DNA of 23,480 nucleotides, from the IMG/VR virus record IMGVR_UViG_3300020394_001139, positions 1-23,480 of that record; one strand, written 5' to 3'. The translations under genes were made by a program, and so were the position numbers. This stretch comes from a virus. The notes beneath the pieces are model-generated. The model had not been told where the DNA came from. It did no database searches and saw only the letters and a list, made by a program, of their open reading frames with translations. The number at the start of each line of letters is the position of its first letter. Position 1 is the first letter of the stretch. Shown here piece by piece: positions 12,528 through 19,347 of the stretch.

Positions 12528-12652
12528 GAATATTCCTTCCTTTTCCATTTTATAGATCTATTATATACTATAAAAAATAGAAAGTAAAGGAAAAAATGCA
12601 CTTTTTTATTTAATTAGAACAATGGCTTACGTTTTTTTTGAAAAAAAGTGAA
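12528..12652. other. Intergenic gap with promoter, dyads and A/T tracts
   Basis: This 125-base gap holds the 12560-12588 promoter. CACTTTTTT at 12599-12607 is the exact reverse complement of 12642-12650, giving a 9-bp stem with a 34-base loop. Inside it, 8 T, one G and 7 A (12632-12647) form a small A:T hairpin right after the exonuclease stop codon. These could slow or end transcription, but the stems are too A/T-rich for a confident terminator. I see no open frame in it. Confidence 0.4.
12560..12588 (-). promoter_or_regulatory. Sigma70-like promoter, TTTACT-N17-TATAAT
   Basis: On the minus strand, TTTACT (12588-12583), 17 bases, TATAAT (12565-12560). The -10 box lies in the loop of an 8-bp inverted repeat, TTTTATAG at 12548-12555 and CTATAAAA at 12568-12575. 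It would drive the three small genes at 12527-11636. Confidence 0.78.
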
Positions 12653-13324
12653 TTAGCCGTGGAACATTTGGCGCCTATTGTACTCATCACGCCAATAGAT
12701 TAGCTTATCGATCCAATCGTCACGCTGTTCGATATACATGACAGGATGGAAATCATCCACATCCATAACAATGCGGAGATGTTGTACAGGCATGCCGGTT
12801 CTTTCTTCCCACATGACTGCGTAACCGGCACCTTGCATGAAGTAGTTGGGGATGTCTTTCTTTTTCTTTGGTCGACGAGATGTCTTCCAATCGATAATAG
12901 TAGGCTTATGATCCCATTCAACTACAGCATCACAGGTACCTGCCAACTGAAGGTGGTCACTGTATAGTGGAACCTCGGTACCGTATACCTTTGTAACATG
13001 CTTGTCAATAAGAGGTTTGAGATTTTGAAGAGATTGCTGAATGTGTGGTAGGTAGTCACTGGTATCTTCGCCATGCAAATACTTTTCAATAATGGCATGA
13101 ACCTGTGTACCGCGTGCTGCAGCACGTCCACCAACTCGATTGGCTTCTTCTTCACCTACACGCTTACGCCATGCAGCAATCTTATCCTCATTTACGAGGG
13201 AGAGTACTGTAGTAACGCTAGGGTAAGCATTGCCATTAAGAGTAACATAGCGCCTACCATCTGAATGTTCAGCGCGATCCAGTGTTTCATAACCAAGATC
13301 AATTTTTTCATGTATAAACTCCAT
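12653..13324 (-). CDS. PD-(D/E)XK exonuclease (RecB/MGME1-like)
   Basis: A 223-aa nuclease of the PD-(D/E)XK superfamily. The family's landmarks are YPSVTTVL (34-41), RGTQVHAIIEKYL (71-83), Glu117, GTCDAVV with Asp132, IIDWKTS with Asp145 and Lys147, and a MQGAGYAV helix (Q164, Y169). It should cut single-stranded or branched DNA with Mg2+, in phage recombination, repair or host DNA breakdown. It is similar in length to the small exonucleases of marine phages. The ribosome site is weak (GGGAA). Its own promoter lies in the 3' end of the preceding gene (13367-13395). Confidence 0.82.
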   Translation of the reverse strand: MEFIHEKIDLGYETLDRAEHSDGRRYVTLNGNAYPSVTTVLSLVNEDKIAAWRKRVGEEEANRVGGRAAARGTQVHAIIEKYLHGEDTSDYLPHIQQSLQNLKPLIDKHVTKVYGTEVPLYSDHLQLAGTCDAVVEWDHKPTIIDWKTSRRPKKKKDIPNYFMQGAGYAVMWEERTGMPVQHLRIVMDVDDFHPVMYIEQRDDWIDKLIYWRDEYNRRQMFHG

Positions 13325-14361: not shown

Positions 14362-14588
14362 TTGTTTATTGTACTCCCAGGGTGTCTTTTCTTAATTCTA
14401 TCTAAGTGATCACGCCAATCACTACTCGTCTTACCAATTGTACTACCGGCCTGTGAAATAAATGACACCGGCTTCAATACCTTTTCTAATTTATATTCAT
14501 CACAAATTTCTTGTAATTCTTCATAAGAACAATTGATGTCCCATTCGGTGCCATCACCATCAATCCTTCGTACTGTATATGTCGGCAC
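14358..14588 (-). CDS. Small conserved MPTY-type phage protein
   Basis: A 76-aa protein whose start I move to a GTG at 14588, reading MPTYTVRR. The longer frame to an ATG at 14636 would overlap the upstream gene by 49 bases and has no ribosome site, whereas the GTG has AAGGAG nine bases upstream and overlaps the upstream stop as TAGTG. The sequence matches the layout of small marine-phage proteins that begin MPTYxFR and end in a DxLxRIKKxHPGSTI segment. These look like FmdB-type zinc ribbons that have lost the zinc cysteines; only one Cys pair-like remnant is seen. Function unknown. Confidence 0.6.
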   Translation of the reverse strand: MPTYTVRRIDGDGTEWDINCSYEELQEICDEYKLEKVLKPVSFISQAGSTIGKTSSDWRDHLDRIKKRHPGSTINN

Positions 14589-15154
14589 TAGCAATTTCTC
14601 CTTATAAACCAATCTGGTTGTTCTCGTCTTGTCCATACCATTTTGAAACGATCCTGTTTAGTTTGATAGAATGCACGATAAGCTTTTACTGGATCTTCCA
14701 ATGCAATGCATTCTGGATTCGATTTCATGGCCAGCTTGAACGGCGTCATTTCACCGTTGCGATATGGTATATTTAGTGGTTTTGTTTCGAGGACTTCGCG
14801 CAGTTCACGGTCGGTCTTGTGTACTTTGCCATAGCGGAAGGTATATTCCTGGCACAATGCTGCAAAGTGTAGGTAGTGCCAATCATAGTTGGCTGCACTT
14901 TCCATAGTCCATACAGTACATGGATGAGAGTGGTGTACAGCTTTGTAAAGTAGAGATTCGAATTGATTGTCAAGCTTGTAATACTTGACCATAGTCTTAC
15001 CAGACTTTGATGGACGCTTTTCCATAGTGCCATCGAGAATACGATGAGCAGTGGACATCATTTGAGCAGATTCCACAATCATTTTAGGAACATGCTTGTC
15101 ACACTGCCACATGGCAGATACTATAGGACATTCGTCAAGAACAAATAGATTCAT
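14588..15154 (-). CDS. Conserved His/Cys-rich T4-like phage protein
   Basis: A 188-aa helical protein with strongly conserved-looking blocks: FVLDECP, CDKHVPKMIVESAQMMSTAHR (18-38), HSHPCTVWTMES (75-86), and EYTFRYGKVHKT (103-114). I know this type from marine phages as an uncharacterised protein. The several His, Cys and Lys residues suggest a metal or catalytic site. No membrane segment is seen. It begins a few bases after the composite repeat-promoter at 15163-15215 and has an AAGGG ribosome site that lies in the repeat arm. Confidence 0.6.
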   Translation of the reverse strand: MNLFVLDECPIVSAMWQCDKHVPKMIVESAQMMSTAHRILDGTMEKRPSKSGKTMVKYYKLDNQFESLLYKAVHHSHPCTVWTMESAANYDWHYLHFAALCQEYTFRYGKVHKTDRELREVLETKPLNIPYRNGEMTPFKLAMKSNPECIALEDPVKAYRAFYQTKQDRFKMVWTRREQPDWFIRRNC

Positions 15155-15162
15155 AATAAAAA

Positions 15163-15206
15163 CCCTTGAAATTTAGCATTATGTATATTATACCAAATTT
15201 CAAGGG
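15163..15206 (-). terminator. 12-bp inverted repeat with T run, nested with a promoter
   Basis: CCCTTGAAATTT at 15163-15174 is the exact reverse complement of 15195-15206, with a 20-base loop. Read on the minus strand, the stem is followed at once by TTTTTATT and the ATG of the next gene, the layout of an intrinsic terminator for readthrough transcripts. The loop carries the -10 box of the 15187-15215 promoter, so the same DNA could instead be an operator. The left arm also contains the ribosome site. Confidence 0.6.
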
Positions 15207-15215
15207 AAAAGTAAA
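15187..15215 (-). promoter_or_regulatory. Sigma70-like promoter, TTTACT-N17-TATAAT
   Basis: On the minus strand, TTTACT (15215-15210), 17 bases, TATAAT (15192-15187), with TGG before the -10. Transcription would start near 15180, after the first arm of the inverted repeat, so transcripts from this promoter cannot form the hairpin while transcripts arriving from upstream can. It feeds the 14588 gene, the MPTY protein and PhoH. Confidence 0.8.
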
Positions 15216-15226
15216 CCATTTTTTTA

Positions 15227-15379
15227 TTAAGTTGCTTCAGCGATCCTCCTCTCTAAGAACTCTCGTTTTTCCATAATGAGTTTCACTCTTTGCAAAAATC
15301 CTCTTCTTTTGAGTTTGTTGGCATATGTTTCGAGTTCAACGGAATCTTGTTTGAGTCTTTCGAGCTGAATTGCTGTCAT
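15227..15379 (-). CDS. Short basic helical protein (50 aa)
   Basis: A 50-aa open frame of charged, helix-forming sequence: MTAIQLERLKQDSVELETYA, then RRGFLQRVKLIMEKREFLERRIAEAT at the C-terminal end in two blocks. GGAG lies ten bases before the ATG. It fills an otherwise empty gap between the DUF6433-type gene and the 15187-15215 promoter. The regular Leu/Glu/Arg pattern suggests a coiled coil. Function unknown; call rests on the ribosome site, position and composition. Confidence 0.55.
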   Translation of the reverse strand: MTAIQLERLKQDSVELETYANKLKRRGFLQRVKLIMEKREFLERRIAEAT

Positions 15380-15395
15380 GGGTTAATTTCTCCGG

Positions 15396-15818
15396 TTAAG
15401 TTTTGTCTAGAAGTAATCCTGGAAAGGCCTCCTCTACTACATTACGTGTAATACCTTTTGGCTTTTCCTTTTTTATCATACTAATAACGAGCCTGGCGTC
15501 ATTTGGATCGACAGACTCAATCAAACCAATGAAAATACTTTCGCGTTTAAACGATGGCATCTTTGTGCCAGGTCCGCCTTTTACGAAGTATTTGAAATCT
15601 GTGTTTCTGCGAAGGAGATTTGACGGAGCGTTATGTCCATCATTGGGTGTGTAAGGTGGTTCACCGGCTGGTAGCAGCCAGTTGACAGTGGAATCGAATG
15701 TTCCTCTAAGAATATCTTTTAGAGCCCAGCTTTCGTTAGCTTGCAAAATAGAAATCTTATCTTCTTTTTTTCTCGCCTTGCCGGCCTTATCAATAACTTC
15801 ATGAACTAGTAATTTCAT
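15396..15818 (-). CDS. Conserved T4-like phage protein, DUF6433-type
   Basis: A 140-aa soluble protein. KEDKISILQANESWALKDIL, NWLLPAGEPPYTPND, FKYFVKGG and SFKRESIFIGLIESVDPNDARL recur in a family that I know from marine T4-like phages as DUF6433; the number is from memory. The frame reaches back to a GTG at 15824, but the ATG at 15818 has AGAGG five bases upstream and gives the family N-terminus MKLLVHEV. A TATAAATA late-type box sits just upstream at 15833-15840. Function unknown. Confidence 0.62.
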   Translation of the reverse strand: MKLLVHEVIDKAGKARKKEDKISILQANESWALKDILRGTFDSTVNWLLPAGEPPYTPNDGHNAPSNLLRRNTDFKYFVKGGPGTKMPSFKRESIFIGLIESVDPNDARLVISMIKKEKPKGITRNVVEEAFPGLLLDKT

Positions 15819-15832
15819 TATCACCTCTAGTT

Positions 15833-15840
15833 TATTTATA
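15833..15840 (-). promoter_or_regulatory. Possible T4-type late promoter box TATAAATA
   Basis: The minus strand reads TATAAATA at 15840-15833, overlapping the stop codon of the endonuclease gene. In T4 the box is centred near -10, so transcription would begin near 15827, leaving a leader of about ten bases that keeps most of the AGAGG ribosome site of the DUF6433-type gene. The intergenic position is good, but one 8-base match is weak evidence. Confidence 0.4.
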
Positions 15841-16237
15841 ACTTCAAATGTCTTGAGTGTATCTTACAACCTATGAATTCGTTGTACCACTCGTCGGAAA
15901 GAAGTACGTCATTATCGAACTGAGCCTTTGCTTCAAAGTAGGACATTTCTCCCTTTGTTCGGCATAGTCGTATGATGTCTCTTCTGTATCTCTCGGATCC
16001 CCGTTCCTCCACAAGTAGTTGGAGCTCCTTATTAGATCCGTAATACTCTCTCCAGTCTGAGGGAGTCCTTGTTCGAACGCGTCTATTTCTTTTAGAATTT
16101 TTAGGTAGTACCTTCGGCTTCCAGAAGTTCTTTTTACCGAGATATTTTTTATTTGTATCCAGTTCTGTGATGACATATACGAAGCCCTGGTATTCTTCGG
16201 GAGTTGTGTCAAAAGGTTCATTGTTGTAATACCACAT
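15836..16237 (-). CDS. GIY-YIG-like endonuclease
   Basis: A 133-aa protein. GFVYVITELDTNKKYLGKK (18-36) is a GIY-YIG-type module: a VYVI strand, then KYLGKK in place of YIG. WREYYGSN (62-69) and a helix with Glu102 in YFEAKAQF supply the Arg and metal-binding Glu of the family. Length and order fit the phage Seg-like or Holliday-junction-type small endonucleases that cut DNA in T4-like phages. No intron or flanking homing site is visible. The start has no good ribosome site; an AATAAATA box at 16243-16250 lies just upstream. Confidence 0.65.
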   Translation of the reverse strand: MWYYNNEPFDTTPEEYQGFVYVITELDTNKKYLGKKNFWKPKVLPKNSKRNRRVRTRTPSDWREYYGSNKELQLLVEERGSERYRRDIIRLCRTKGEMSYFEAKAQFDNDVLLSDEWYNEFIGCKIHSRHLKL

Positions 16238-16245
16238 AAATGTAT

Positions 16246-16398
16246 TTATTCATCGTATTCCTCGCTCAAATCAAAGTCGAGATCCCGATGTGCTTCGGAG
16301 TGTGCACGCCTTCCACACATCGGGCAAAACTCAGGAGCATCGGACGCTGTAATGTAAGTTATCGCTTCACATTCTTCGCATTCGATTTTAAACTCCAT
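16246..16398 (-). CDS. Short zinc-ribbon protein (50 aa)
   Basis: A 50-aa open frame with a C4 zinc-ribbon pattern: CEEC (7-10) and CPMC (25-28), followed by an acidic tail (DLDFDLSEEYDE). The ATG overlaps the nrdB stop codon as TAATG, and the frame fills the gap to the endonuclease gene almost exactly. Small zinc ribbons of this type occur near nucleotide-metabolism genes in marine T4-like phages. The role could be binding of a protein or nucleic-acid partner. Confidence 0.65.
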   Translation of the reverse strand: MEFKIECEECEAITYITASDAPEFCPMCGRRAHSEAHRDLDFDLSEEYDE

Positions 16399-17360
16399 TA
16401 TGCTACCTTATCCCAACCCCAGTCACCTTCCATGCCGTTGACTGAATATTCGGTTACACGCTTCTCAAAGAAGTTATCATGAGATGCGCCGTTAAGTACC
16501 CAATCCAACCAAGGGAGTGGATTATCCTTTTGCTTGAAGATTGGTTTCATTCCAAGCTGTAGCAACCTACGGTCAGCAATATGTCGAATGTAATCTCTTA
16601 CTTCTTGCTTTGTCAAACCTTGTACTTCATCAGTACCGTTGAATGCAAGCTTGATAAATGCATCTTCGAGTTTGACTGCGGCCTTTGCCATTTCGTAGAT
16701 TTTTGACTTGAGTTCATCGTTAACGATACGTGGATGTTCGTCACAGAACTCTCTGAATAGTTTAGCAATACCTTGTACGTGCATTGATTCGTCGCGGATT
16801 GACCATTCAACAATCGTACCCATACCTTTCATCTTTCCAAAACGCTGGAAGTTGAGCAGCATAACAAAGGATGCAAATAGTGACATACCTTCATTAAATA
16901 CAGATTGAGCCATGATCAAAGCCAGACCCATCTGCGTATTAGGATTACCTTGTGACATAAAGTCAATCTTATCTGCCATCTCAGAATATTCAAGGAATGC
17001 ATGGAACTCTTCATCCGGCAAACCAAGTGTATCGTTTAGCAGAGCATATGCTCTTTGGTGGATTGCTTCTCTATTGGCAAACGAACCAAGCATATTACGT
17101 ACTTCGTTATTTTTAAATTTAGGAATCAAAAGCTCGTAATAGTTTTCACCAACCTGTACATCCGACTGAGTAAACAGACGCAGCACCTGTGTAATGAATT
17201 CTTTTTCTTCCTCGTTTAGTTTTGTCCTCCAATCCTGGACGTCTTCGGACAGTTCTGCTTCGTCCTCAACCCAGTGGATTTCTTCGTGTTTCTTTGTTAA
17301 CTCTACCGCCCATGGATAGAGAAATGGTTTATATGTTTTTGATGCTTCTAATAGACCCAT
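16398..17360 (-). CDS. nrdB: Ribonucleotide reductase class Ia, beta subunit
   Basis: A 320-aa ferritin-like subunit that holds the diiron-tyrosyl radical which starts ribonucleotide reduction by NrdA. Metal ligands are in place: Asp67 (QSDVQVG), Glu98 and His101 (REAIHQRAY), Glu157 (FNEGMS), Glu191 and His194 (RDESMH). Tyr105 lies four residues after the first His, matching radical Tyr122 of E. coli NrdB. It begins one base after the nrdA stop codon with GAGGGG upstream, so the two subunits are co-translated. Length is a little under the E. coli form. Confidence 0.95.
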   Translation of the reverse strand: MGLLEASKTYKPFLYPWAVELTKKHEEIHWVEDEAELSEDVQDWRTKLNEEEKEFITQVLRLFTQSDVQVGENYYELLIPKFKNNEVRNMLGSFANREAIHQRAYALLNDTLGLPDEEFHAFLEYSEMADKIDFMSQGNPNTQMGLALIMAQSVFNEGMSLFASFVMLLNFQRFGKMKGMGTIVEWSIRDESMHVQGIAKLFREFCDEHPRIVNDELKSKIYEMAKAAVKLEDAFIKLAFNGTDEVQGLTKQEVRDYIRHIADRRLLQLGMKPIFKQKDNPLPWLDWVLNGASHDNFFEKRVTEYSVNGMEGDWGWDKVA

Positions 17361-17361
17361 G

Positions 17362-19347
17362 TTACCCCTCGCAAGCTCTGCATTCTTCTGATTCTGTTGT
17401 TTGATAAGATGTGTTCAAGAACTGCATAAGTTCATTGTACCCACCTACGTATTTTCCTTCAATGTAAATTTGTGGCACGGTTTTAACTTTCCGTCCAGTT
17501 ACTTCGGCAGCCGTCTTACCAATCTCATCTAGATTAATAAAATCAAATGGCATACCTCTCAATGATAATTCTTCTTTTGCTCTTGTACAGTATGGACAAG
17601 TGTTACGTCCATAAACGATAGAACGTGTATCTTCCTGTAGAACATGTCTTTCGACTTTATCACCTACAACCTCAGCTCTTTGCTTTGCTTCCGTCCGTAG
17701 ATAGTATAGACCCTTTAGCCCATTTCTCCAAGCTTTGATATGAGCTCGATTGACATAAGACTTGTCAGCTCCGGCTGGGAAGAAGAGATTGACTGATTGT
17801 CCTTGGCAGATATACTTCTGCCTGTCTGCTGCGTGCTGTACAACCCATTCCTGGTCGAGTTCTTGCGCAGTCTTGAATACTGCCTTTTCCTGTTCTGTAA
17901 GTTCCGGAATATGTTGGACCGATCCTTTCTTTGTGATAATCGACGTCCACGTACTTTCATTGTTGATTCCATTTCTTTCCAATACCTCTTCCAAATACTT
18001 GTTCTTAACGAGAAAAGAACCTGCACGAGTACGATGTGTATAGGCATTTGCTTTCAACGGCTCGATTGATGGACTGGTTGACAAGATAATACCTGAGCTG
18101 GCGTTAGGTGCAATTGCAAGAAGGTGAGCATTTCTTACGCCACTACCTTCACCGTCTGGATATTCACCTCTATCCTTTGCCAAAGCTTTAGATTGCTTTC
18201 TTGCTCTATCCTTAATAGTAGCAAATACCACTTCATTAATTTCTTGTGCTAGGTCAGACTCCCATGCTACACCTTGTGATTGGAGAAGCGAGTGGAATCC
18301 CATTGCGCCAAGTCCCAAAGACCGTTCTCTTTGAGCTGAGTAACGAGCTCTGGATATAGAATCAGGCGCATTTTCGATGAAGTATTCGATGACATTATCC
18401 AACATCGTAATAAGATCTTCGACAATGTTGGAATCCTTCCACTCTTCGTATAGCTCAAGATTAAGAGAAGAGAGACAACAGACAGCAGTGCGATCATCGG
18501 ACGTAGGCAAATGAATTTCATTACAAAGATTAGATCCATGGATCTTGAGTCCTTTATCCTTTAGTTCCTGCGGTAGATACTTATTAGCGGTGTCAATAAA
18601 ATTAAGATATGGTTCACCTGTACGGAAACGAACTTCAATAATACGTTCCCACATTTTACGTGCATTTACAGTTTCAGATACCTTACCGTTTGCTGGATCT
18701 TTGAGATCCCAATCATTATCATTAATGACAGCTTCCATAAAGTCATCTGTAATATTAATTGCATTATGTAGGTTCAATGCTTTGCGCTGTACATCACCTG
18801 TAGGAATACGCATATTTAGAAATTCAACAACGTCAGGATGCGAAATATCCATGTATGCTGCATAGGATCCTTTACGTGTCTTACCCTGACGATATGCAAT
18901 CATATCAGCGTCAACAGTATGCAGAAAAGGAATTGGTCCTGGCGCTTTGTCAGATACAGTTCTTACGTCAGACCAATGTCCACCTACTCCACCACCAAAC
19001 ACAGAAAGCCATCTCAATTCTGACGAATGAGAAATCAAACCTTCAAGTGTATCTGGAACATATGTCAAGAAACACGAAATAGGTAGTCCTTTGTCTGGTT
19101 GTGATTTACTTGGCGCGTTTGAAAGCACCGGTGATGCAAACATAAACCACTTATTTGAAACGTAATCATATAGGCGTTGGGCTAAGTCCCAATCTGTTTG
19201 TCCTTGATAGGTCGCCCATGCTTCAGCAGCACGTGCGTAACCATGTTGTGGCGATTTCTCATCGCCCCTTAGATAAAAATCTTTGAGCATGCCAACCGCA
19301 TAATCGGTAAGGTTGTCATCCTTCTTTAAATTGAGTGTAATAGCCAT
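17362..19347 (-). CDS. nrdA: Ribonucleotide reductase class Ia, alpha subunit with inserted glutaredoxin
   Basis: A 661-aa catalytic subunit that reduces ribonucleotides to deoxyribonucleotides for phage DNA synthesis. Active-site residues are visible: Cys92 (PISCFLTY), Asn273-Cys275-Glu277 (SNLCNEI), Cys290 (AVCCLSS), and Tyr548-Tyr549 (LYYL) of the radical path. The N-terminal ATP-cone is missing, so dATP shut-off is probably absent. Residues about 575-645 are a glutaredoxin with CPYC (584-587), cis-Pro625 in TVPQIYI and GGYNEL. The usual redox tail, CRAC (656-659), comes after this domain. The enzyme thus seems to carry its own reductant next to the swinging tail. It has its own promoter at 19397-19425 and an AGGGG ribosome site. 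Confidence 0.95.
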   Translation of the reverse strand: MAITLNLKKDDNLTDYAVGMLKDFYLRGDEKSPQHGYARAAEAWATYQGQTDWDLAQRLYDYVSNKWFMFASPVLSNAPSKSQPDKGLPISCFLTYVPDTLEGLISHSSELRWLSVFGGGVGGHWSDVRTVSDKAPGPIPFLHTVDADMIAYRQGKTRKGSYAAYMDISHPDVVEFLNMRIPTGDVQRKALNLHNAINITDDFMEAVINDNDWDLKDPANGKVSETVNARKMWERIIEVRFRTGEPYLNFIDTANKYLPQELKDKGLKIHGSNLCNEIHLPTSDDRTAVCCLSSLNLELYEEWKDSNIVEDLITMLDNVIEYFIENAPDSISRARYSAQRERSLGLGAMGFHSLLQSQGVAWESDLAQEINEVVFATIKDRARKQSKALAKDRGEYPDGEGSGVRNAHLLAIAPNASSGIILSTSPSIEPLKANAYTHRTRAGSFLVKNKYLEEVLERNGINNESTWTSIITKKGSVQHIPELTEQEKAVFKTAQELDQEWVVQHAADRQKYICQGQSVNLFFPAGADKSYVNRAHIKAWRNGLKGLYYLRTEAKQRAEVVGDKVERHVLQEDTRSIVYGRNTCPYCTRAKEELSLRGMPFDFINLDEIGKTAAEVTGRKVKTVPQIYIEGKYVGGYNELMQFLNTSYQTTESEECRACEG

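Follow-up and report, generated by a model that had tools for sequence, protein, structure and literature searches.

A promoter nested inside a hairpin as a probable lock on read-through expression of a phrog_624 gene in a virus record allied to marine T4-like phages

In the IMG/VR virus record IMGVR_UViG_3300020394_001139, the 23.5 kb of which (positions 1 to 23,480) are here called the window, the gene for a phrog_624 protein is preceded on the minus strand by a sigma70-type promoter whose -10 box lies between the two arms of a perfect inverted repeat, and the gene's ribosome site is in the second of these arms. Judging from the sequence and that of its relatives, it is probable that this element acts in cis as a lock on read-through RNA, and that the gene thereby depends on its own promoter. 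The arrangement suggests that short intergenic regions of phages encode a promoter, an insulator, a ribosome site and perhaps a terminator within one set of about 50 bases, which bears on the annotation of phage operons and on forecasts of gene expression from polycistronic RNA. Read on the minus strand from 15215 to 15152 the element is TTTACTTTTCCCTTGAAATTTGGTATAATATACATAATGCTAAATTTCAAGGGTTTTTATTATG, and its parts, with the gene they precede, are as follows.

15210-15215, minus strand: -35 hexamer TTTACT, in the place of which relatives carry TTTACA or TGTACA
15195-15206, minus strand: arm 1, CCCTTGAAATTT, within the -35/-10 spacer and upstream of the expected start, with compensatory changes in relatives
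15187-15195, minus strand: extended -10, TGGTATAAT, with TATAAT at 15192-15187, the latter invariant in an alignment of 23 leaders
15180, minus strand: predicted transcription start, some 7 nucleotides past the -10, from sigma70 spacing
15163-15174, minus strand: arm 2, AAATTTCAAGGG, from an inverted-repeat scan and RNA folding
15163-15167, minus strand: ribosome site AAGGG, Shine-Dalgarno (SD)-like, at the end of arm 2 and 8 nucleotides 5′ of the ATG, from the sequence and an SD scan of relatives
15155-15162, minus strand: T-run TTTTTATT abutting arm 2, a candidate intrinsic-terminator tail, which a minority of relatives have
14588-15154, minus strand: the controlled gene, 188 amino acids, phrog_624 (label ‘DNA binding protein’, putative)

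The initial annotation had described a promoter nested in a perfect 12-base-pair inverted repeat with a T-run, and the arms, the hexamers and TTTTTATT were all located. Also borne out was its statement that the arms flank the -10 box and that the outgoing arm holds the ribosome site and is followed by the T-run and an ATG, all of this on the minus strand, which had been left unstated. The arms (15206-15195 and 15174-15163) match without mismatch, one on each side of the -10 box, and after arm 2 the order is TTTTTATT (15162-15155) and then the ATG at 15154. The promoter, with its spacer of 17 and its TG extension of the -10, is one of the best promoter-like sites in its region. As RNA, the stem is predicted to reach 17 base pairs once G-U pairs are included, with a loop of 10 nucleotides and a folding energy of -21.2 kcal/mol. 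The window contains a single perfect 12-base-pair inverted repeat whose arms are 3-40 nucleotides apart, as against 0.067 expected under a first-order Markov model. The hairpin was overlooked by a simple terminator scan because the loop limit of that scan is 8.

How would such an arrangement work? Read-through from the nrd operon is to be expected because the upstream genes point the same way, and a polymerase coming from nrdA-nrdB would transcribe both arms, the resulting RNA forming a hairpin of 12-17 base pairs that would bury AAGGG, so that phrog_624 protein would not be made from that RNA. In this phage the stem together with UUUUUAUU probably also halts many of the read-through transcripts. 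A polymerase starting at the putative nested promoter would begin between the arms, at about 15180, and its transcript, the expected start being past arm 1, is predicted to lack that arm, which would leave the ribosome site single-stranded and the gene open to translation. The predicted probability that the SD is unpaired is, for the window, 0.22 in read-through RNA versus 0.57 in RNA from the nested promoter.

The evidence that carries this reading is comparative. It had been proposed that the layout be looked for in related phages, and in the upstream regions of phrog_624 gene homologues from viral contigs the nesting and the pairing do recur, with compensatory changes. Many homologues have a TTTACA/TGTACA - TGnTATAAT promoter whose spacer contains arm 1, with arm 2 lying past the start and before the ATG. 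Of 30 distinct upstream regions that have a promoter with a leader, 17 reach a nested-hairpin score of at least 22 (in the shuffle reference the 99th percentile is 20 and the 99.9th is 24). The letters of arm 1 differ from contig to contig, each variant having its complement downstream:

Window CCCTTGAAATTT; L002 ACCCTGAAATTT; L005 ACCCTTGCCGA; L009 GCCCCTGTCGA; L010 CCCTTACCGATT
L014 CCTCTGTTC; L030 CTCCGCTAAG; L226 AAAGCTCCCATAATT; L236 CCTCTCACAATT; L261 GTGTCTCCGTTT

In L005 and L009 the proteins are 92-93% identical and the arms are unlike those of the window. The subgroup around L005 has an 11-pair helix in which 66 of 66 cells are paired and 4 of the 11 pairs are changed on both sides, a covariation score matched by 1 of 500 shuffles, and in the window's own subgroup 4 of 12 pairs are doubly changed and 0 of 500 shuffles reach the score; because the shuffles preserve column make-up but not kinship, these figures are support and not probabilities. 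When, as a control, the partner is slid by 1-3 columns, pairing falls to 27-62%. Across 26 distinct leaders the paired positions comprise 324 Watson-Crick, 43 G-U and 9 mismatched combinations, a count that is description rather than test because the arms were picked as the best helix. That relatives keep folding while the letters change suggests that the hairpin matters.

Is it then the ribosome or the polymerase that the hairpin impedes? The G-rich ribosome site is within arm 2 in 24 of the 26 distinct leaders, and a separate scan adds L236 as the 25th, with an overlap of 4 nucleotides, whereas a T-run of at least 4 follows the hairpin in 9 of the 26. Occlusion of the SD is thus the more conserved effect, and, the window being one of the minority with a T-run, termination and occlusion may both act in this phage. 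Termination is likely to be local, i.e., a matter of this phage and its near relatives. The terminator-promoter switch put forward in the initial annotation therefore survives in part: a hairpin present in read-through RNA only is strongly supported by the covariation, and termination is a plausible effect in this phage and those close to it, but the scarcity of T-runs tells against extending it to the others. That the hairpin is nothing but an intrinsic terminator into which a promoter has been folded, a composite resembling the promoter early stem-loop (PeSL) cassettes, which would end the upstream operon and let the nested promoter restart, the SD pairing being incidental, is unlikely. The window does have what such a terminator should have, a perfect stem with a CCC/GGG base and then TTTTTATT directly, near relatives share the perfect stem, its base and UUUUUAUU, and in some of the leaderless relatives described below this place is taken by an ordinary hairpin terminator, the tail of which includes or adjoins the -35. 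Yet 17 of the 26 leaders keep the hairpin without a T-run of at least 4, the SD is almost always in the paired arm, and a loop of 10-20 nucleotides is long for an intrinsic terminator.

A hairpin lying between two gene blocks, and which would form in read-through RNA only, could also protect the 3′ end of the upstream messenger RNA or serve as a ribonuclease site parting two messages, and T4 has sites at which ribonuclease processing is established (PMC2988022); but a role in stability or processing leaves both the SD in arm 2 and the placing of the hairpin around a promoter unexplained, and we consider it very improbable. The initial annotation had offered, besides, an operator over the -10 box; this would be a palindrome in DNA bound by a dimeric repressor or activator. 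A repressor bound there would obstruct RNA polymerase, as the palindrome spans the -10, but the half-sites differ among close relatives (CCCTTGAAATTT, ACCCTTGCCGA, CCTCTGTTC, CTCCGCTAAG), even between phages with 93%-identical proteins, the spacing of the arms varies, and the position of arm 2 follows the SD. G-U pairs are frequent (~12%), which suits RNA rather than a protein-bound DNA palindrome. Disfavoured on the variable arm letters and the G-U pairs, an operator strikes us as very improbable.

Against a lock on read-through RNA several points have to be set. The covariation subgroups are small and were picked for carrying the hairpin, and their counts took the place of a whole-alignment result: RNAalifold, given the full alignment of 23 sequences, recovers only 4 pairs, because MAFFT fails to hold the arms in register. 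The nested hairpin is missing from almost half of the promoter-with-leader relatives, and in L029 the SD is outside arm 2, a true exception among the 26 leaders. At the hairpin loci the SD is predicted to be unpaired with a probability of 0-0.3 in RNA arriving from upstream and of 0.2-0.57 in RNA begun at the nested promoter, but the low read-through values follow in part from the selection of hairpin loci. The promoter may be active early, but its ‘early’ class is assigned from the sigma70-like sequence only.

The relatives in which the layout is altered are themselves instructive. In leaderless variants (L070, L077, L235, L262, L273, L274 and others) the -10 ends about 7 nucleotides before the ATG, a leaderless transcript is expected, and there is a separate ordinary hairpin just upstream, the -35 often being in or beside its tail (GGGGTTTACT). 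A leaderless promoter with an upstream hairpin would be an alternative block on read-through at the same gene, both layouts having the effect of silencing read-through RNA. The split between nested hairpin and leaderless promoter is not taken as proof because it is partly geometric, a leaderless promoter leaving arm 2 no room. The named phages that come closest, by DNA or protein, are marine and T4-like, namely Phage C48C1 (67% protein identity), Pelagibacter phage HTVC008M and cyanophages; in C48C1 the upstream gene is divergent and the nested stem weak, which agrees with a lock on read-through but is a single case. In L026 and L027 some 30 extra loop bases create a 15-codon leader open reading frame (ORF; MEVAFKYIYVDRDIS) with its own AGGAG, the stop of which overlaps the start of the phrog_624 homologue (TAATG), and both hairpin arms remain complementary.

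The arms of the window are matched exactly in five more contigs (L082-L086), upstream of a protein that is 67-69% identical where measured, and the histories of cassette and gene are therefore partly separate. Identity shifts near the cassette (window 15155-15450): L082 and L085 have a cassette ~91% alike and a gene more diverged, while between L005 and the window the gene is 84-92% alike and the cassette diverged. Such shifts are suggestive, though only that, of exchange around this site.

The possible sources of read-through are on the same strand as the element, in the order nrdA, nrdB, a SegE-like GIY-YIG gene, a DUF6433 gene and a short ORF:

15227-15379, minus strand: 50-amino-acid ORF immediately upstream, the candidate read-through source
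15396-19347, minus strand: DUF6433, SegE-like GIY-YIG, nrdB and nrdA genes further upstream

NrdA (17362-19347, minus strand) has a C-terminal glutaredoxin domain. Past the phrog_624 gene come a short ORF, phoH and an exonuclease gene, and for the phrog_624 protein itself searches of solved structures and Pfam gave no match.

Is the arrangement peculiar to one gene? In a survey of seven records, the window and six contigs, the phrog_624 hairpin is, where present, the top nested hairpin or among the top ones. At other promoters spacer-to-leader complementarity is above that of permuted pairings, both in a strict set of 33 (mean 13.1 versus 11.9, p 0.0055) and in a looser set of 57 (13.5 versus 12.2, p 0.001). 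The spacers of several pair with the SD, e.g., at G001 88035, CTCCTCTTTT with AAAAGAGGAG, and in the window at 2069-2012, minus strand, a TTTACT-17-TATAAT promoter has a spacer complementary to the SD region (TTACTTTTTACTTT / AAAGAAAAAGGTAA) of a gene for a HExxH-type protein of 128 amino acids. The latter layout recurs with other letters at the G002 homologue, but as most relatives are without it no claim of conservation is made. Outside the phrog_624 gene 13 of the 57 promoters score at least 17, versus 4.6 expected, and generality remains a lead because the score thresholds were set during the work and the sole other gene followed is not conserved. It is conceivable, if doubtful, that marine T4-like phages generally store an anti-SD strand in the -35/-10 spacers of early promoters and so insulate many early genes from read-through. 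Were this so, each promoter would carry, upstream of its own start, a sequence that silences its gene in longer transcripts. Elsewhere in the window an inverted repeat, AATGCACTTTTTT / AAAAAAGTGAATT (92%), with a 34-nucleotide spacer, is at 12595-12654, just upstream of a promoter-like site at 12588-12560 (minus strand).

Two known systems invite comparison. In PeSL cassettes of T4-type phages, as described in PMC4503421, an early-type promoter is likewise joined to a stem-loop between genes, and the identity shifts near the window's cassette hint at exchange of flanks as there. In contrast to that description, there is one copy per record, the stem encloses the -10 box and the SD is in an arm. 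A cassette repeated within the same genome was rejected, no further copy being found in five records, which may be incomplete, where the next-best same-strand matches have 25-27 of 44-46 bases.

The closer parallel is with T4 e, soc, 49 and I-TevI and with Aeh1 mobE, where the ribosome site is buried by a hairpin in longer upstream transcripts only, and where, for T4 e and I-TevI, a promoter within the 5′-strand region gives RNA that is without that strand and translatable (PMC3014915, PMC2988022). As with these hairpins, the SD is predicted to be paired in upstream RNA, the promoter's own transcript to be without the 5′ strand, and the pairing is kept in relatives. The genes under such control are all late genes (PMC2988022), and the promoter of T4 gene e is given as TATAAATA (PMC3014915). 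In contrast to the late promoters of e, soc and I-TevI, that of the window is without the TATAAATA feature and has instead TTTACT-17-TGGTATAAT, i.e., a sigma70-type promoter with a -35 and an extended -10. It differs too in that arm 1 is in the -35/-10 spacer, that the gene is downstream of nrdAB, and that in the window's clade a T-run adds possible termination. Since the promoter is sigma70-type and not late, the purpose may be reversed, barring expression of an early-type gene from longer or later transcripts. The classical T4 late-gene device would, on the reading as a lock, extend to an early-type promoter, and the covariation indicates its upkeep across many uncultured marine phages.
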